From: Cordylochernes scorpioides
Lineage: Eukaryota > Arthropoda > Arachnida > Pseudoscorpiones > Chernetidae
NCBI GenBank assembly: GCA_030710605.1
Contig: CP092886.1
Location: 161,804,000 to 161,867,999 of the forward strand
Length of the DNA stretch: 64,000 nucleotides
Direction: 5' to 3'
The notes beneath the pieces are model-generated. The model did not search any database and was not told where the DNA came from. It was given only the letters and a program-made list of their open reading frames with translations. Numbering within the stretch: the stretch's first letter is position 1; each line of letters opens with the position of its first letter. Both the position numbers and the translations under genes were made by a program. Positions 11,230 to 54,345 of this stretch are shown here, piece after piece.

Positions 11230-11639
11230 CTCTAAAGTAAAGATCGTCACATTATGTTCTAAAACTGAGCATATCAATACAATATCTATAATAAAACAAT
11301 AGAAAAGGGTTTAATTCACTAATCGAATCATGCATAAATGATTTTGACAAAGTTTGCAGAGGAATTCGCATGAAAGCTCCTTTATGAACAAACAGTTATG
11401 TAAAAGAAAATTCGTTTTATTTTTTCCCTAAGCGAATTTTATTTTTTATAATTTTTTACCGAAGGGATTATATTAGTAACAAACAGTTATGTAAATTGTT
11501 GACAGAAACGAATTGTGTTTTGGTGGTCCTAATGTAAACATAAGCAATATTAACCTATTTGGTTAAACATTTATTCCGAAAGATGGCGCAACCTAATAGT
11601 AACTTTCAGATACACAATACAAAAAATTAAGTGGCACTA

Positions 11640-11800
11640 TATATGAATAATATGTCTTTTTGGAATATATATATCATTTATTATAAAGTAAATAAAGCTT
11701 CCAGGGTTAAGTTTCTTGTTCAAATTTTTATTTTCAAGCTTTCGGACTTGTCAGTCCTTCTACAGGAGTATCACGATAATGAATTGATGATATATATACT
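11640..11800. repeat. Fragment with variant hammerhead-like sequence
   Basis: On the minus strand, CTGTAGAAGGACTGACAAG and then TCCGAAAGCTTG (about 11732-11765) form a hairpin GGACT/AGTCC between CTGTAGA and GAAA. This is the same layout as motifs near 14.8, 23.1, 35.0 and 40.3 kb. The core differs from a true hammerhead by U at position 6. The flanking AAATAAAGCTTCC belongs to the same repeat group. Confidence 0.5.
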
Positions 11801-12426: not shown

Positions 12427-12899
12427 TGGTATATATAGAAGACTGCTTACATTTATGGGGTAGTATTTGTCAATATTGTTAGGTATGTTTCTGATATTTC
12501 TATGCATCTGTTTGTGCTTTTTTGTCGTTTGGTTATCATAGATTATATTAAGAGTCTTTGGTATTTACTATGGATATTGTCATAATGCACTATGGGTTGA
12601 GATAAGTTAAATGTATGACTTGTTTCTTTTATATGTTGAACTATTAAAGATCTAGGGTCACTCTCTCTATTGTTAATATTCCTATTATGTTCAGCTATTC
12701 TATTATGGACTTTTCTCCCAGTCTCCCCTACATATTTGGAACTACAGTTATTGCATGATATGAAGTATATGGCTTCTTTTCTATTGAATGGAATATTGGA
12801 ATGATTCTTTGTTAATGGGTTTCTAATTATATTGCCTAAATTTGGAGAATTATTGTACATAGTTTTAATACCATATTTTCTAAGTGTTCTAGCTAGGGA

Positions 12900-12915
12900 T
12901 ACTGATTGAAGGGAA
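12900..12915. repeat. Target-site duplication of LINE (left)
   Basis: TACTGATTGAAGGGAA here is repeated exactly at 13547-13562. The 16-bp direct repeat brackets a LINE ending in (TTG)n. It is the target duplication made on insertion into the Penelope-like element. Confidence 0.93.
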
Positions 12916-13546
12916 AAACAGCGGCAGTCCAATCTATACAAAACGACCTTACAAGAATGGATAAATCTAAGCTATACTCTCACTACAAAGACATTCACAT
13001 ATCTTTCATGACGGAGGGATACCTTTTAGGGGATTTTCCTTTCCCGGTTGTAAGACTACTCGCACAAGTTAGAATACTTTCAAGTTTTTTTAGAGAAAAC
13101 CACACCAAGATGCTCTGCGGTGAGGACCCGATTTGTACCTTCTGTAATTCAAAACTAAAAAATGAAATCACTCACTATATTTTTGATTGCTCTGCTCTGA
13201 AAGAAGAAAGAAGAACCCTTATGCTCAAAACTGGGCAACTCTGTACTTCACTTCCATCAATAATTGACAATATGACCCAGAATAAGTATATTGCTATGGC
13301 GTTTTATGGTTTCCACAAGTCCATATCTGAGAAGAAGGCCAAGTGACACTCACTCCTCACTTTCTTACTGCTATTCTTTTTGTGTTGTTTTTCTTGCTTC
13401 CCTCTTTCTCTTTCTTATTTTTTTTCCTTTTTCTACTGTATATATCTTTATTTCCTTTGTCTCACTGCTTTGTTCTTGTGCATACCTCTGGTGAATCCTG
13501 TATAGGGTTAGTGACCCTAAATAAAGGCTTTTTGTTGTTGTTGTTG
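12916..13546 (+). mobile_element. 5'-truncated LINE with (TTG)n tail
   Basis: The insertion keeps only the C-terminal coding end (12916-13346) and a ~200-bp 3' UTR ending AATAAAGGCTTTTTGTTGTTG. The coding part has CTFCNSK then HYIFDC, a Cys-X2-Cys-X7-9-His-X4-Cys knuckle like the C-terminus of the LINE at 41247 (CTLCNGG, HYMFYC). Both share AATAAAGGCT before the TTG tail, so they belong to one family. Severe 5' truncation and the long duplication are typical of target-primed reverse transcription. Confidence 0.9.
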
Positions 13547-14141
13547 TACTGATTGAAGGGAATATGGGATGATACATAATGTTCTATAAATTTCTGCTTT
13601 TTGAGTTATTGTTTTGGTATTTTCTGCAGTCGGATGAAAATGTCGTAGAATGAAGGATTTTGAGTAACCTGATGATGATAAGTTTTTGATAATATTTTGC
13701 GTTTCTTCTGTTTTTAATTGAGGTAAAGAACAATGTGTGAATACTCTTTTAGATAATGTTTTATAGTATTGATCTTATGGCTGAGAGGACAGAATGAAGA
13801 ATATTTAATGTAGTTCGGGATAAAGGATGGCTTATAATATACACCTGCATTTAATTTATCTTCTATCCTCATGATTCTAATATCTAAAAAGGGGAGGATA
13901 CCATTCTCTTTTTCTACTGTAAAATTAATATTTGTATGGTAACTATTCAAGGAGCCTAGGATATGGGAAAGTTGGCTGTCTGTACATATGCAAAAGATAT
14001 CGTCTATATATCGTCTATATATAATAATGTCTTCAGGATATAGAGATGTAATCCACGTGTCTTATAGTACGCATTACTATTTCAGCTATAGGGGAGGATA
14101 ACGGACTTCCCATGGGGGAACCTTTAACCTGTTTATATTGT

Positions 14142-14335
14142 AACATAGTATTTCTTAATTTTATTATTTTTTATTTAACAGAGTGGTCATTTTTATGTTT
14201 TATATCTTGTGACTCTGTAAATTTCCCCTCGTGGCTTATCTTTTGTTTACCTTGGATAGTTTGTCCTTCCCTGAAATAAATTTTGTTTCCTCCTGAAGTT
14301 TTTGTCTTCCCTAATTTTCCACGTGACAATATGTT
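14142..14335. repeat. Short dispersed repeat shared with 32040-32142
   Basis: TGTAACATAGTATTTCTTAA, then AACAGAGTGGTCATTTTTAT and GACTCTGTAAATTTCC, recur almost identically at 32040-32142, where the first 20 bases are also locally duplicated. Here the block adjoins the 5' break of the Penelope-like relic. Its parent element is not known. Confidence 0.65.
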
Positions 14336-14689: not shown

Positions 14690-14870
14690 TGTTCAAATCA
14701 ATAAGCTTGAGGGATAAGTATCTTTCAAATAAATTTATTTCAAGCTTTCGGGCACAACCGCCCTTCAGCGTAATATATTTTTCCTGTCGAAGGGCGGTTG
14801 TGCCCGAAAGCTTGAAATAAATTTATTTGAAAGATACTTATCCCTCAAGATTATTGATTTGAAATTCTAT
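14690..14870. repeat. Foldback element with variant hammerhead-like arms
   Basis: The arms pair almost perfectly for ~75 bp: AATCAATAAGCTTGAGGGAT on the left is inverted at ATCCCTCAAGATTATTGATT on the right. Each arm holds GGGCGGTTGTGCCC (hairpin) followed outward by GAAAGCTTGAAATAAA. The right arm has CTGTCGA before the hairpin, matching the variant core CUGUNGA seen elsewhere; the left arm is reduced to CTGAAGGGC. Confidence 0.8.
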
Positions 14871-14879
14871 TAGGGGGTT

Positions 14880-17400
14880 AGCCTATTAATTGTAAGACAT
14901 AATATTTCCCAATTGTTTGTATTTGTATTGTGCCAAGCGCTCACAGTGTTGAAATATGGATTGGAAGTTCCAATTTTCTCAAAGTTCTTCTCAGGTAGTA
15001 ACAACCTATTCGGACTATCTTGTGGTTCCATGTTGTTTATTATTTGTGATTCTTCTGTGTGATCTGGATGTTATACGTGTTTCCCAGCAACATCCTGGAG
15101 TTGGAAGGATACAGCAGACAGTGCGGAAGAATACCGCTACATTCTGAAGACAATGCGCTAGTCGCTGCTGCAGAAAGAAGCTTCTCTCCATCGACCCTGC
15201 CGCAATGCGGATCTCATTATTGGCTCCAATATTCCGTCGACTTGATGGATCGGCGTCCAATAGGCGTGTGCCGATAATTGGCGCCGTGGTTTAATCCACT
15301 TCTAAACGTCCCCAGATCGATGGCGCGGAACGCCCCTCCATGTCGTGGGCGGGCGCAGCGGACACTGAAAGGGCGGGGCCTGACCACGCATTCGGCGTGT
15401 TCCGCAATCAGAGAGCCCCGCTCATGTTTATTTATTCCCAAGACTATTTTTCAAAGAGACAAAAGGCCTCTGATTGGTGGTTTCGTCGAGCGATTCTTTA
15501 GAGACGTAATAAGCCAAAGCGTTTCTCCGCAGCCTCAATGGAGAATGCTCGATATTCATACTGGGAGATATTCTGAGATCCCCAGACCATTTAAACCCCT
15601 GTCGGCATTACCCAGGTTGATGATCTCACTGCTCCATTAGGGGATCTCTAAATCGCCAAGCACATTGCAACGGAGCAACAAATAAGTGAAGTAGACAGCC
15701 AATATTCTATTTGGCGTCATCCTGAAATATAGGGAGATTTTTGAATTTCAGGAGCATTCTATAGAGGCTTATTCTTCTCACATGTTTTACAAGTATTATA
15801 TATACCTGGCTCTACATAATAGTCGAAATATTGATTTAAATGCTTAATATTTTAAAATTGAATGAGAAGAATCTTCAAGTTATTTCGATTCAAAATTGTT
15901 GTATTTGATATATTCTTGAAAATGGCCGAAGTGTCTTTTATTAAGAAAAGAACTGCTAAAATATTCTATAGAAATAAAATACACCTCTCCCGTCAAATTA
16001 GACGACAGTAGCCGAAAAATAGCGGCCTTGGGTCGCTGACAAAGCCACAACACAAGCTGTGGCAAACTGAGAAGCACTCAACTGGAGACCATGATTTCGG
16101 GTTATGGCTCTCGTCAGTTTAGGGCGAGCTTTATTCCATTAGATATATAAGGGATCAAATTAAATATTCGCAGTCCGCCAAAGAGGTGTTTTAGCTGACA
16201 AAGTGACTAGGCCATATTTATAGCCAAAATATAAATGAAGATTTTGCCCGGAAGATAATTCTATATAAAAATAAAGATGGTTTCCCGTCAAACTAGACGT
16301 CATCTCTCAATGATACAGTCTTGTTATAACTTAGTTCCTTGAATAGCGCGATTATTAAATGACATCTACGTTTACCATAGTTTCCTGAAGCGATGCTTAT
16401 AAAGCGAATTGCAGAATATTTTCTAATCATACCTGCAATTTCAGTACAAATGCTTAGTTTATCATAATTTAGTTGATATGCGATTTACCCGTCAACGTTG
16501 TTTCAAATCAGAAATTTGTCGTAGGACCTTGCCAGAACATCGCCGCATTTGAAGCATCATCTTTCCTATGCTGAAGAATTTACAGAAATGATTTCAAGTC
16601 GAAGGTTGAAAGAAGCGTTCAGTTCTGCCAGACGCCGCATCGCTGCCTCTCACATCTCGTAGTTTTGAAATGCTAAACGTTTATTGTGTAAGTTCGGGCC
16701 TTTGGGAAGCCCTCGTCTTAAGGACGACAATGCTCATAGCCGCTGCGCTTTGCATTTACTCGTTTTTTTTTTAGCTGGCTCACTTCACATTTCTGGTTAT
16801 CGTCCAGTTTTTGTGGAGATTTGACGAGCCGAAAATGGCAATGCTGATATCTGAAGCAAAGCCATTTTAAAATCATTCTAGAGAAGTAAATCGATGAAAA
16901 TTTCGTAAACAAATTCAGAAACACCTTTCTTACAGGTGGCACCTAAACCTAAGAAACTGAATTAGGACCATCGATGGCAAACTTCTACGTAAGGATGTTA
17001 AATGTTTGTCCCGCCTCAGAACAGGACAAACGAAGAGTGAGTGAAAGTCATTCCAACTTGCACTCTATGCAATAGGGCATGCAACCCCAGACCGTCTGCA
17101 CTCATGTATGAGAGCCAAGAAGCACACACTGCTTGGTACAATAGTTCACAATTAATAGTTGGCAATTCATATAAATTGTAAATTTGGTATAATGATGGGT
17201 TTGTATAGCAATTATATCTGACCAGCAGCTCATGTAATCGGCTATAAATTATAAATAAGCTAGATAAAAACGGTGCTTTACCTTTATATAAATATCTCAG
17301 AAATAATAAATTAATTATAAATTCAATATATATTATATAAATAAGCTGAAGCTATTAAATATTTGGGCTCCATTTGAAATATGGCAAGAGAGTGTATATT
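14880..17400. other. Single-copy-looking non-coding DNA
   Basis: The stretch 14950-15660 is GC-richer and has several overlapping short ORFs on both strands, none with a recognisable domain or codon signal. 15880-16660 and 16680-17100 are mixed sequence with GTCAAATTAGACG-like blocks at ~15993 and ~16289. No window repeat family was recognised. The region may contain regulatory DNA but shows nothing definite. Confidence 0.4.
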
Positions 17401-22873: not shown

Positions 22874-22914
22874 TCTCAACGTTTCGACAAAATCTTTTGT
22901 CTTCGTCAGGAGAA
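22874..22914 (-). ncRNA. Hammerhead-ribozyme-like motif (left arm)
   Basis: On the minus strand: helix I 5' strand TTCTC, core CTGACGA (22903-22909), helix II GACAAAA/TTTTGTC (7 bp), GAAAC, cleavage triplet GTT, then GAGA closing helix I with 4 bp. All required core bases are present and helix III is minimal. This architecture matches the short-helix-III hammerheads reported in Penelope-like elements. Confidence 0.62.
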
Positions 22915-22961
22915 GTAAATAAAATTTTTTAATGCCTTGCCAAATGTTTATTTTTATTTAC

Positions 22962-23003
22962 TTCTCCTGACGAAGACAAAAGATTTTGTCGAAACGTTGA
23001 GAA
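22962..23003 (+). ncRNA. Hammerhead-ribozyme-like motif (right arm)
   Basis: Helix I 5' strand TTCTC (22962-22966) pairs with GAGAA (22999-23003) over 5 bp. The core CTGACGA is at 22967-22973, helix II is GACAAAA/TTTTGTC, and GAAAC at 22991-22995 leads to GTT. It is the inverted partner of the motif at 22874-22914, with a slightly better helix I. Confidence 0.65.
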
Positions 23004-23104: not shown

Positions 23105-23165
23105 CCATGTTTTCTCCTGTAGAAGGGCGTACGTGCCCGAAAGCTAGAGAACAATAAAAATGTTT
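23105..23165 (+). repeat. Variant hammerhead-like motif
   Basis: TTCTC precedes CTGTAGA. The hairpin GGGCGTACGTGCCC follows, then GAAAGCTA and GAGAA. Helix I would be TTCTC/GAGAA (5 bp) and helix II GGGC/GCCC. The core base that should be A at position 6 is T, as in other members of this variant group. Confidence 0.55.
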
Positions 23166-23374
23166 TCAAAAAGATACTTTTCCCTGGAGGAATGATTGAT
23201 TTTACTCAATTTAGACATATCTTTTTCTAAACAAACTTCAAACCAAAAATATTCTTCTTATGCATTTTATATTATTCAAAAACTTTGTCATCAGATTTTG
23301 ACAATGAAGAAACTCTTCACACTTCACTGTCCTGGTCCACCCATTATATATAATAAACTGTCATACATTAGCGC

Positions 23375-23645
23375 GCCATCTGTCATGAAAATTAGAAACT
23401 ATTATAGACACGTATGATTCTTTTAAAAATTAAACCATTTTCTACTTCCCTTACTGCAATGAAAAATTAATGGGAGAGCCTGGGTCATCAATGGTGAACT
23501 CTCTCAGAGGTTACGATTGGGAGGGTTCACCACTGATGAGCCAGGCCCTTCCATTAATTTTTCATTGCAGTAAGGGCAGTAGAAAATTGTTTAATTTTTA
23601 AACAATCATAAGGGTCTATAATAGTTTCGAATTCTCATAATAAAC
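23375..23645. mobile_element. MITE family 2, near full-length palindromic copy
   Basis: The left end has AGCGCGCCATCTGTCATGAA. An internal inverted pair CTTACTGCAATGAAAAATTA / TAATTTTTCATTGCAGTAAG brackets GGTTCACCACTGATGAGCCA. The right arm mirrors the left for most of its length. No ORF is present. The outermost right repeat is worn. Confidence 0.8.
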
Positions 23646-33945: not shown

Positions 33946-34029
33946 TCTATTAACTATTTATTATCATTATTTAATTATGATATATATTCATTTTTGGAAT
34001 ACATCATATCTCATAATAAAATATATTAA

Positions 34030-34262
34030 TATGATGTATTAGCGCGCCATCTATTATAAGAAATATAAACTATTTTGACGCGTATGATCTTTTTGAATTA
34101 AAACAATTTCTACTGCCCTTACTGCAGATATAAAATAATGGGAAGGTTCACCACTAATGAGCCAGGCCATTCCATTTATTATTATTTTTTTAATGATTGC
34201 AGTAAGGGCAGTAGAAAATTGTTTTAATTCAAAAATTATCATACGTGTCAAATATATATAAT
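34030..34262. mobile_element. MITE family 2 (palindromic copy)
   Basis: The left end is AGCGCGCCATCTATTATAAG. CTACTGCCCTTACTGCAGAT is mirrored by ATTGCAGTAAGGGCAGTAG. The centre has GGTTCACCACTAATGAGCCA. The outer right repeat is diverged. Confidence 0.82.
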
Positions 34263-35124: not shown

Positions 35125-35412
35125 TTAACTATATATTTACTTCATCAAATTACAAAACTATTTTAGACGCGTAATATTCTTTTTAAAATAAAACAATTTC
35201 TACTGCCCTTACTGCAATGGAAAAATTAAAGGGAGGGCCTGGCTCATCAGTGGTGAACCCTCCCAGCGGTTTCGCCAGTTTAATCTACCATACCGCTGTT
35301 ATATTGCATTTTTGGAATTGCAGTAAGGGCAGTAGAAATTGTTTTATTTTAAAAAGAATATTACGCGTCTAAAATAGTTTTGTAATTTGATAACAGATGG
35401 CGCGCTAGTACA
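35125..35412. mobile_element. MITE family 2 (best full-length copy)
   Basis: The arms ATTACAAAACTATTTTAGAC with GCGTAATATTC and CTACTGCCCTTACTGCAATG are mirrored on the right, ending GATGGCGCGCTA. The asymmetrical centre holds GGGAGGGCCTGGCTCATCAG, TGGTGAACCCTCCCAGCGG and TTTCGCCAGTTTAATCTACC. About 280 bp, with no ORF. Confidence 0.85.
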
Positions 35413-36014
35413 TCGAGATATATATATATATATTTATTTCATATTTGAGACAATTACTTGCCTAGCAGAAGTTAAATATTGAAAGTGTTCCTATTGTGTT
35501 CAAACCTCCATTGAGAATTTTTCGACATTTCATGTTTTTGGGTCACCTCCGGTGATTGTAACGTACTGATATTCAAAGTTTAGTTTGTCTAGCTAGATTA
35601 TTTGGTATAGTTTATGTGTAGATTGTAAATTTTTCAGCTATATTATGTTACAGAGATACCAGGTTTTCTAAAGGTTTATTGGAATGAATTAATAGCAATA
35701 AATATGTGCCTATAAGTTTCATGTTCTAGACGCCTCGCTGTTTTGTTATCGCTCATTCCTGCGCTGTCTATTGACGATATATTGTTTAAATATGTGTGGG
35801 AGTGGTTTAACGGCATTTTTGTCTCTTGCCCTGCTCGCTAACGATCAATATGGCATATGGCAGGAAGGATGGATGATAAGCAACAGTTCTTCGCCATTTT
35901 TCACAACTTGACAAATTTATTCACCCTGCTCTCTCTTCATGAATTTAATATAAGGACCCATTTATAAAGGGAGAATTAAGTATTCTTAAAATTACATATC
36001 TACACATAATAACA

Positions 36015-36285
36015 AATAAAGAAAAAGGCATCTCCTTATCGTGCAACTGAAAGTTGCTGATGGCTTGCGCCATCTATCGGAATAAATATCAACTATTCTC
36101 GTTGATTTTTAATTATTTCAGAATTGGCCAAATACCCATTCTTGATTAATCAAGAAAAGCTAACCACGGACGCGTTTCGGGCTGTTGGCCCTCATCAGCG
36201 TGGTGCAAACTGTACCTTAACGACCAAAAAATTGGTCATTAAGGCATCCAGAAAAATCATGAAAGGAGATGCCTTTTTCTTAATT
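36015..36285. mobile_element. MITE-like repeat containing a hammerhead motif
   Basis: The ends AAAAAGGCATCTCCTTA and AAGGAGATGCCTTTTTCTTA are inverted repeats. GCGCCATCTATCGG at 36068 recalls the ends of MITE family 2. Inside, a GACC...GGTC and AAGGCATC...CTTAACGACC set of short inverted repeats surrounds the canonical hammerhead motif on the minus strand. Confidence 0.65.
36162..36204 (-). ncRNA. Canonical minimal hammerhead ribozyme
   Basis: Reading the minus strand: helix I ACCACG, core CTGATGAG (36191-36198), helix II GGGC/GCCC closing a CAACA loop, then GAAA (36175-36178), CGCG, and the cleavage triplet GTC (36169-36171). CGTGGT then pairs all six bases of ACCACG. Every invariant core base (CUGAUGA, GAAA, NUH) is present. 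Helix III is reduced to about two pairs, as known for hammerheads in Penelope-like elements, which may work best as dimers. Predicted self-cleavage is after C at 36169. Structure is inferred by hand, not computed. Confidence 0.78.
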
Positions 36286-36949
36286 TATGCACCTTATCCC
36301 AGTACAATATTACATTTGTACTATTTTTCACAATAACAAATATATAATGCAAAAACATAAATATATATTCATATTTATAATAACGTGTTAAATTGTTTAG
36401 TATTTTATATATCAAAGATATACAATAAATTATATATCTCTCTCAATGAACAACCATAGTTTTACAAAGCTTGTTAGTGCAACAATAAAGAAATAGGCAT
36501 GTTGTAGAGATTTTAGTTTGAAAGCTAGCCGTATGAATCTAATAAGATACTAATTGCAAGTTTAATTTAAATAATCTTAATAAATATGTCTTTTGAAACT
36601 TTAATCATACATAACGTTTATTGTTTTGAGAACTCTTTTAGAAGCCTAATAATAAAGAAGCCGTCCAAACGCTAAGGAGGAATCTTTCGGGTTTTATATA
36701 TCGACAATACCTCCATTGTTTCGATGGGTGTTGTTTGTTCTGCAACTTCCTTCATTTTTATCGTCTTTTTTAGAAAGTGAATATAAGAAAATCTCAATTT
36801 ATTTATAACAACAAAAAACTTAAAATATAGAAATTTAATACATTTTCAAATACAATAAAAAGAAAAGTAGTAACAATAAAAATATTTGAACTTTATCTAG
36901 GTTTTATAGAGGGGAAAAAATAGATGATGATATATTTTTGCATCTCATG

Positions 36950-40196: not shown

Positions 40197-40313
40197 CTTC
40201 GACAGGACCATCTAGAAGTATAACTAACTAACTATACACGGCGGAAACTATACACTGCGAGCATAGTTAGCTGGAAGTCATACTTCTAATTGATCCTGTT
40301 GAAGGGCATGTTG
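40197..40313. repeat. Foldback with variant hammerhead-like end
   Basis: CTTCGACAGGACCATCTAGA with AGTATAACTAACTA pairs in inverted form with TAGTTAGCTGGAAGTCATAC, TTCTAATTGATCC and TGTTGAAGG. The right end leads into CCTGTTGAAGGGCATGTTGT and CCTGAAAGCTATAG, the variant hammerhead layout. Confidence 0.65.
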
Positions 40314-40320
40314 TCCTGAA

Positions 40321-40655
40321 AGCTATAGAAATTAAAATGGTTCAAGACATCTAACCCTGGATATTGCTTGTTGATATTATTAAATAATGGTACTCTAAAT
40401 GATGAACTATTTCATGATATACATGCTTATGATAGCTATAGAAATAAAAATGGTTCAAGACATCTAACCCTGGATATTGCTTGTTGTTATTATTAAATAA
40501 TGGTAATCTAAATGATGAACTATTTCATGATAAACATGCTTATGATAGCTATAGAAATAAAAATGGTTCAAGACATCTAGCCCTGGATATTGCTTGTTGT
40601 TATTATTAAATAATGGTACTCTAAATGATGAACTATTTCATGATAAACATGATGA
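40321..40655. repeat. 113-bp tandem repeat, ~3 copies
   Basis: Units begin AGCTATAGAAAT at 40321, 40434 and 40547, exactly 113 bp apart, and differ at only a few positions (TGATATT/TGTTATT, GGTACTC/GGTAATC, ATATACA/ATAAACA). The unit start coincides with the 3' part of the variant hammerhead-like motif. Confidence 0.93.
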
Positions 40656-41096
40656 TGATACGTTGTGTAGAAAACAATGTTATTACCGTATTTAAAATCT
40701 CTATTTGTACTTCAAACTCGACTCTGTATTCCCTCGACGCGGTGATGGAGGGCCCCCACGCTAATTGATCCCGAAGGATCTTGATTAGCTCCTGGCGGAA
40801 CAAGAGCCACTCGGCGCCTTTTGAATAAGTCGTTGGGCTATTCAAGGACTCCGCGGTAAAATTGAGCATCAGAGAGAATTTGTTTATATATGAAATTATA
40901 CTTCAAACTTTTACTTTTTTTGCTTTATTCCGTTGCGGCGATTAAATTTCAACAGTTTTTCCTTAAAAATAAGAAATAACGCTAAGGTGTTTATATATTA
41001 TGACTTTAAATGTGATTTTTTTTACTCTCTCTTAATGCGAACTCTATAAAGGTGACAGAGCTGCAATGTACATATTCCATTATACATAGTATTCTT
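40656..41096. other. Non-coding DNA with a GC-rich patch
   Basis: 40690-40870 is GC-richer and looks single-copy (CTCGACGCGGTGATGGAGGG, ACGCTAATTGATCCCGAAGG). No ORF with a domain is present. It may be conserved non-coding DNA near the Rbp6-like gene. Confidence 0.35.
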
Positions 41097-48296: not shown

Positions 48297-48740
48297 AATT
48301 TTTCCGTTCGCCATTACTCTTCATATTTTCACCCTTTCATACTTCATCCAAAAAAGTTAGAAATAATAAATATTTCTCTTTGAAATAAATATTGATTTTT
48401 CACAGAAAAGAAACTTATGCGGTGAAACTTTAAGTGTTGTTTATAATCATACGCCGCAGTCCTTTATAATGTATTATAAGTTACTTTAAATATTATTTAC
48501 GAACGGAAAAATACGTCCAGCGTAGCCTAGTGGACATGGCATTTGCCCGGTAAGCGGAACGTTGTGGGTTCGATTCCCGCCCCTGGACACTTTTGTTTTT
48601 CCGTTCGCCATTACTCTTCATATTTTCACCCTTTCATACTTCATCCAAAAAAGTTAGAAATAATAAATATTTATCTTTGAAATAAATATTGATTTTTCAC
48701 AGAAAATAAACTTATGCGTTGAAACTTTAAGTGTTGTACG
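48297..48740 (+). repeat. tRNA-derived repeat (SINE-like) with a duplicated ~140-bp body
   Basis: A ~140-bp block beginning TTTTCCGTTCGCCATTACTC and ending ACTTTAAGTGTTGT is present at ~48300-48440 and again at ~48597-48737, about 97% alike. Between them is a tRNA-like sequence (48516-48588). One reading is a SINE with a tRNA head (48516 onward) plus body, preceded by a headless copy. Another is a small element with 140-bp direct terminal repeats. Confidence 0.7.
48516..48588 (+). tRNA. tRNA-like sequence, probably a SINE head or tRNA pseudogene
   Basis: A 73-nt cloverleaf fits: acceptor TCCAGCG/CCCTGGA with one C-C mismatch, T8-A9, D stem GCC/GGC with GTGG in the loop, anticodon stem TTTGC/GCGGA, loop CCGGTAA with anticodon GGT, and T arm GTGGG-TTCGATT-CCCGC. 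Box A-like TAGCCTAGTGG and box B GGTTCGATTCC are intact. C in place of U33 and the mismatches argue against a working tRNA. Confidence 0.6.
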
Positions 48741-54212: not shown

Positions 54213-54345
54213 TAATAAAATATTTTAGAGGCGTAATATTCTTTTTAAAATAAAACTATTTCTACTGTCCTTACTGCAATGGAAAAATTAAAGGGAGGGC
54301 CTGGCTCATCAGTGGTGAACCCTCCCAGCGGTTTCGCTAGTGCAT
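54213..54345. mobile_element. MITE family 2, left half only
   Basis: ATTTTAGAGGCGTAATATTC, CTACTGTCCTTACTGCAATG, GGGAGGGCCTGGCTCATCAG and AGCGGTTTCGCTAGT match the 35.1-kb copy closely. The right arm is absent and the sequence switches abruptly to unrelated DNA at ~54345. Confidence 0.78.

Follow-up and report, generated by a model that had tools for sequence, protein, structure and literature searches.

A 64,000-nucleotide stretch of DNA from the pseudoscorpion Cordylochernes scorpioides (contig CP092886.1; hereafter the window, in which all positions are numbered) contains a short repeat with inverted ends and, inside it, letters resembling a hammerhead ribozyme. The locus raises two questions: whether the motif is a hammerhead by descent, and what kind of element carries it. 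The motif was read from the letters and with a structural descriptor, and its parts are as follows.

36163-36204, minus strand: type I hammerhead motif, 42 nt
36199-36204, minus strand: 5' arm of helix I, ACCACG
36192-36198, minus strand: core, CUGAUGA
36179-36191, minus strand: helix II, GGGC/GCCC, with loop CAACA
36175-36178, minus strand: GAA and A15.1
36171-36174, minus strand: palindromic tetraloop CGCG
36169-36170, minus strand: U16.1 and C17
36163-36168, minus strand: 3' arm of helix I, CGUGGU
Between 36169 and 36168, minus strand: cut site after GUC, predicted from the motif
36149-36214, minus strand: extended hammerhead with a putative internal loop in stem I (5' UUGC, 3' UAG) and loop II CAACA, from the alignment to Hammerhead_HH9

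From 36204 to 36163 the minus strand reads ACCACG-CUGAUGA-GGGC-CAACA-GCCC-GAA-A-CGCG-U-C-CGUGGU. All hammerhead core positions are present without interruption, the cleavage triplet is GUC, and the type I core pattern CUGANGA ... GAA(A) ... UH with G10.1-C11.1 is satisfied. Helices I and II can form with 6/6 and 4/4 pairs, and helix I is the open helix. In these respects the initial annotation, which had described a canonical minus-strand hammerhead with a 6-bp helix I and a 4-bp helix II, was correct; its span of 36162-36204 placed the motif rightly, with 36162 as one extra flanking base. It had further given the motif a helix III of two pairs, as known from Penelope-like elements, and this part has to be revised. 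Helix III consists of one A15.1-U16.1 pair closed by the CGCG tetraloop, since a second C-G pair would leave a loop of 2 nt, and this layout is instead the one printed for the axolotl HHR_Amex1. The additional pair came from a word list in which two G's were counted twice (CTGATGAG and GGGC; CGCG and GTC).

The descriptor, which was written after the motif had been seen, comprised the core, a helix II of at least 4 bp and a helix I over 6 nt. It matched the window once, at the motif, and found no ribozyme on the opposite strand of the element. Among 80 random 64-kb sequences of similar dinucleotide make-up, a helix I of at least 4/6 pairs occurred in 1 and of at least 5/6 in none; in a further 800 (51.2 Mb, both strands), the counts for at least four, at least five and all six pairs were 6, 2 and 0. 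For comparison with real DNA, a prokaryotic genome collection was searched for the pattern CTGATGAG-N(6-20)-CGAAACGCGTC. It occurred in 19 stretches, and in none of them did helix I or helix II exceed 3 contiguous pairs, the spacing between the words being too short for a longer helix II in some of them. These stretches were rejected as relatives (longest contiguous run 3 pairs in each of the two helices) and retained as a control. Four scans of viral contigs with core patterns and an element-specific 20-mer, as exact patterns only, gave 0, 0, 0 and 1 match, the last without helix I, and a search of a plasmid collection in distant mode (E up to 0.01) gave none. A regular-expression match at 16095-16117 (minus strand) was rejected by eye, with helix II incompletely paired and the U-H layout missing after GAAA.

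At curated thresholds Rfam reported no hammerhead in the window. At permissive thresholds the top ribozyme match was Hammerhead_HH9 (RF02275), with 25.9 bits at 36149-36214 on the minus strand, half the gathering score of 52, so a covariance-model match above threshold, which had been proposed as a check on the motif, was not obtained. The E-value was 0.0003 over the 501 bases searched and 0.038 over the full window, in which HH9 was outscored by numerous chance matches of microRNA type. The core and the letters of loops I and II align with the model (UUGC, UAG and CAACA in the motif versus UUAC, UAC and CAAAAA in HH9), whereas helix III of the motif is shorter and the outer helix of stem I is weak.

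Folding energy by itself does not set the motif apart from shuffled sequences: the z-score was -1.39 for a 43-mer (17/200 shuffles equally good) and -0.09 for a 66-mer (88/200). A competing fold of the 42-mer that pairs the core GAUG reached -14.3 kcal/mol, against -13.1 kcal/mol when just helices I and II are formed. In the lowest-energy fold of the entire element both helices persist, together with the competing GAUG pairing, and helix I is lost in the fold of the 225 nt between the arms. When two 42-mers were arranged as a double hammerhead of nested form, joined by a 6-bp helix III (ACGCGU), the energy was -33.9 kcal/mol. Two separate monomers restricted to helices I and II gave 2 x -13.1 kcal/mol, and a single monomer with its lone helix III pair gave -7.2 kcal/mol; the best predicted fold of two 42-mers (-34.4 kcal/mol) uses the competing core pairing. 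Overall, the motif is almost certainly a true hammerhead by descent.

The one-pair helix III with a palindromic tetraloop is shared with the axolotl HHR_Amex1, a ribozyme whose cleavage is poor in the monomer and good in the dimer (PMC7229834), and a 2011 survey regarded palindromic stem and loop III sequences as suited to dimers (PMC3088659). Newt satellite DNA and HHR_Amex1 resemble the motif in helix III layout and dimer-favouring geometry, but differ in unit sequence and loop, a comparison made by description only. A weak helix III has been described for amphibian retrozymes, whereas most invertebrate ones are more stable (PMC7229834, PMC7761336).

The second question concerns the carrier, whose ends and internal segments are listed here.

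36014-36037, plus strand: inverted terminal arm at the 3' end of the ribozyme-sense strand, 23/24 complementary to 36263-36286
36263-36286, plus strand: inverted terminal arm at the 5' end of the ribozyme-sense strand, 23/24 complementary to 36014-36037
36020-36281, minus strand: 262-nt unit delimited by the stretch over which the arms match perfectly; predicted to fold as a closed rod carrying hairpins at its sides
36008-36018, plus strand: left candidate target-site duplication AATAACAAATA, touching one arm
36332-36342, plus strand: right candidate target-site duplication AATAACAAATA, about 45 bp past the other arm
36017-36019, plus strand: TAA on the left, one copy of a 3-bp direct repeat, next to the symmetric end 36020; short and AT-rich, may be chance
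36281-36283, plus strand: right TAA of the same repeat, abutting the symmetric end 36280; may be chance
36037-36087, plus strand: 51-bp segment with GCGCCATCTATCGGAATAAAT, 82% identical to 11619-11569 and antisense to the ribozyme

The carrier is a strongly self-paired, non-coding repeat of about 0.26-0.31 kb, which the arms confirm as the small repeat with inverted ends of the earlier description, and it is likely to be mobile. As a linear RNA, the 312 nt of 36019-36330 fold with -110.9 kcal/mol (z -7.89), and 36020-36281 folded as a circle reach -96.1 kcal/mol (z -7.96; 0/100 shuffles) with 70% of bases paired. The G+C content is 0.40 in the 262-nt unit and 0.38 in 36019-36331. BLAST found no second full copy or tandem neighbour within the window.

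The two sets of candidate ends compete, and neither is proof. They give a unit of 262 or 313 bp, in either case within 150-450 bp, of low G+C and with a type I hammerhead. The boundary drawn by the 11-bp duplication leaves about 45-50 bases at one end unexplained. In an AT-matched control, 90/3000 pairs of window segments shared an 11-mer and 5/3000 did so with the same edge placement; a composition-blind control gave 9 of at most 2000 pairs, close pairs being skipped uncounted. No duplication of at least 5 bp abuts both arms, where the symmetric 3-bp TAA at 36020/36280 is present, and nearby boundaries show several other 2-3-bp matches. The roughly 50 nt outside one arm share GATAAGG with the 3' end, but reading them as its diverged copy was abandoned, the arms being nearly perfect.

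We consider it about an even chance (roughly 0.5) that the carrier is a single-unit metazoan non-LTR retrozyme, or a SINE-like derivative of one, that is non-autonomous and bears a type I hammerhead. This reading is favoured because the motif is complete and unexpected by chance, all 19 prokaryotic core-letter matches and the one viral match lack the helices, and the ribozyme family that scores best in Rfam is itself a hammerhead, with similar letters in loops I and II. The double-hammerhead pairing, which outdoes that of two monomers, points in the same direction. In addition, size, G+C, self-pairing and a possible duplication of more than 4 bp fit published animal retrozymes, and a Penelope-type GIY-YIG domain and minimal hammerhead-like motifs share the window, as both kinds of hammerhead are reported to co-occur (PMC7229834). 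The retrozymes of coral, mussel and axolotl are similar in their type I hammerhead, their unit of about 170-400 nt, their low G+C and highly self-paired RNA, and the lack of a visible LTR (PMC7229834). Since retrozyme-like repeats have already been stated to occur in insects and crustaceans (PMC7229834), the element would be a new member rather than a new kind.

Several observations count against the retrozyme reading. The published family consists of tandem repeats, whereas the carrier is a single unit within the window, and its 24-nt inverted ends set it apart, as such ends are not among the retrozyme features described in the available text of the same paper (PMC7229834). The literature surveyed (titles and abstract openings of top-ranked records, with few subscription journals) likewise describes no hammerhead in an inverted-end element. 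The score lies below the Rfam gathering threshold, the competing GAUG pairing turns up in the lowest-energy folds of the 42-mer, the 42-mer pair and the entire element, and the fold between the arms is without helix I. At the DNA level, the 11-bp duplication leaves bases over and an 11-mer is common to 3% of the AT-matched pairs, and the symmetric TAA flank suits a DNA transposon instead. The AT-matched control and the TAA flank therefore weaken the retrozyme reading and strengthen its main rival.

That rival is a MITE that holds a hammerhead captured from a retrozyme or a Penelope-like element, with the ribozyme uninvolved in its movement. The 24-nt inverted ends with 23/24 matches agree with it, as do the symmetric ends 36020-36280 with TAA on both sides and the absence of any coding frame of at least 120 aa across the repeat. 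Duplications of 3 bp with the form TWA are typical of PIF/Harbinger elements, and the TAA flanks would suit that type. Yet three bases in AT-rich DNA, with other 2-3-bp matches at nearby boundaries, make a weak signature, and RNA pairing is strong inside the arms too (36038-36262 without arms, z -5.0). We regard a MITE as possible but on balance unlikely.

A solitary piece of the pseudo-LTR of a Penelope-like element, with its minimal hammerhead, would be another source of the motif, and such elements do carry minimal hammerheads (PMC7761336, PMC6155905; also PMC11167929). At 12543-12971 (minus strand) Pfam identified a Penelope-type GIY-YIG domain, and pieces upstream of this frame, at 14170-13714, show -PMGSPLS- and -YIDDI- motifs by eye. 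With E up to 1, Pfam assigned none of three putative reverse transcriptase pieces to a reverse transcriptase family and gave one irrelevant weak match, so the Penelope identity rests on the GIY-YIG match and the motifs seen by eye. Together, 12543-14170 (minus strand) looks like a decayed Penelope-like element. The 51-bp segment of the carrier adds to the case, as its counterpart at 11619-11569 follows, at a distance of 117 nt, the minimal motif at 11736-11765 (minus strand), which is itself 3' of the GIY-YIG domain.

The pattern CTGANGA-N(6-24)-GAAA occurred 11 times in the window against 3.64 expected, and 0/100 shuffles had as many. A scan for minimal motifs (one bulged base before helix II, helix II of at least 5, helix I of at least 3, and an assumed 2-nt loop III), designed after such motifs had been seen, found 5 in the window, some of them copies of one another, and 0 in 400 random 64-kb sequences. 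Comparison of the motif families shows changes in both strands of helix I (TGT/ACA, CTC/GAG, TTTC/GAAA), and likewise of helix II. The Penelope-like pieces have on their 3' side the motif at 11736-11765, with 2 helix I pairs, and on their 5' side an inverted pair, 14742-14768 (minus strand, imperfect) and 14784-14813 (plus strand). These minimal motifs agree with what the reviews cited above state for Penelope-like elements, and the motif at 36163-36204 is of the other, canonical kind. It shares the core letters and a short palindromic loop III with Penelope-like minimal hammerheads, but in the Penelope-type motifs of the window one base bulges out ahead of helix II and helix I runs to no more than 5 contiguous pairs, whereas the motif here is unbulged with a full 6-bp helix I. 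The 51-bp likeness is moreover on the strand opposite to the ribozyme, and no Penelope-type reverse transcriptase or GIY-YIG frame was found beside the carrier, Penelope-type coding pieces being found in the window only more than 20 kb away, at 12543-14170. An origin as a Penelope fragment is accordingly rather improbable.

Minimal hammerhead-like motifs also form three head-to-head inverted pairs with a spacing of a few tens of bases or less (1941-2026, 14742-14813 and 22878-22998), one member being imperfect in each of the first two. Three motifs have U at core position 6 (CTGTNGA), at 23117-23146 (plus strand), 14784-14813 (plus strand) and 11736-11765 (minus strand), with 5, 4 and 2 helix I pairs, respectively; helix II and GAAAGCT are kept, and they are possibly a decayed or altered Penelope-type ribozyme family. 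A tandem array of three 113-bp copies at 40296-40660 (plus strand) starts beside a hammerhead-like CTGTTGA...GAAAGCTATAG (40296-40325), and its unit contains a related TGATAGCTATAG stretch. The sequence GCGCCATCTNT occurs five times, at 11579-11589 (minus strand), 23373-23383 (plus strand), 34044-34054 (plus strand), 35393-35403 (minus strand) and 36067-36077 (plus strand); two of these copies lie downstream of a same-strand hammerhead-like motif, at a distance of 100-250 nt, and the copy at 36067-36077 is opposite to the ribozyme strand. A family of self-inverted repeats is found at 35144-35391, 23369-23640, 34013-34256 and 54217-54341, the listed copies being 69-96% alike and one of them 0.6 kb from the ribozyme repeat. 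The window further contains Ty3-like, Tc1-like and RVT_1-bearing pieces and a zinc-finger/DUF4371 frame, in which DUF4371 scored under its curated cutoff. A tRNA-Thr (anticodon GGT) was identified by ARAGORN at 48515-48590 (plus strand), with a tRNA match in Rfam too, less than 1 kb from a Ty3-like gag frame.

A chance likeness with no role in cleavage would accord with the score under the Rfam gathering threshold and the unremarkable z-scores of the isolated folds, but it is very improbable when 6/6 helix I pairs with a helix II of at least 4 occurred in 0/800 random sequences and the pairing in 0/19 prokaryotic core matches. The least probable explanation of all is that an independent circular RNA agent, viroid-like or delta-like, has left an integrated copy here. 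The closed rod of the 262-nt unit would suit such an agent, but the descriptor found no opposite-strand ribozyme and the viral-contig scans gave one match without helix I, although those scans, with exact patterns only, weigh little.

If the carrier is a retrozyme, its mode of movement may be outlined from the motif and from published models. Transcripts of the minus strand of the window would be cut after GUC, between 36169 and 36168. Cutting of a single unit is expected to be weak because helix III has only one pair, and would become efficient once two copies pair through ACGCGU, either in a tandem unit or between two RNAs. A host RNA ligase may then close the cut product into a rod-like circle, following the published model (PMC7761336), and a reverse transcriptase acting in trans, perhaps from a Penelope-like element, could copy the circle into new sites. 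A distinctly doubtful extension is that the inverted ends are the two halves of a terminal hairpin in the rod-shaped circular RNA rather than the ends of a DNA transposon. Reverse transcription would then start and stop at the hairpin loop and yield single-unit copies that resemble MITEs, and if this were true, some elements filed as MITEs would be retrozymes.

If the ribozyme is active, C. scorpioides would possess a newt-like hammerhead of the dimer type alongside the Penelope-type hammerhead-like motifs of its genome; otherwise the locus would be a retrozyme-like repeat of an ordinary sort, or else a MITE that has captured a ribozyme. An active element would also offer a compact system in which to ask by which reverse transcriptase retrozymes are moved, and a test case for whether an RNA rod can yield inverted ends.
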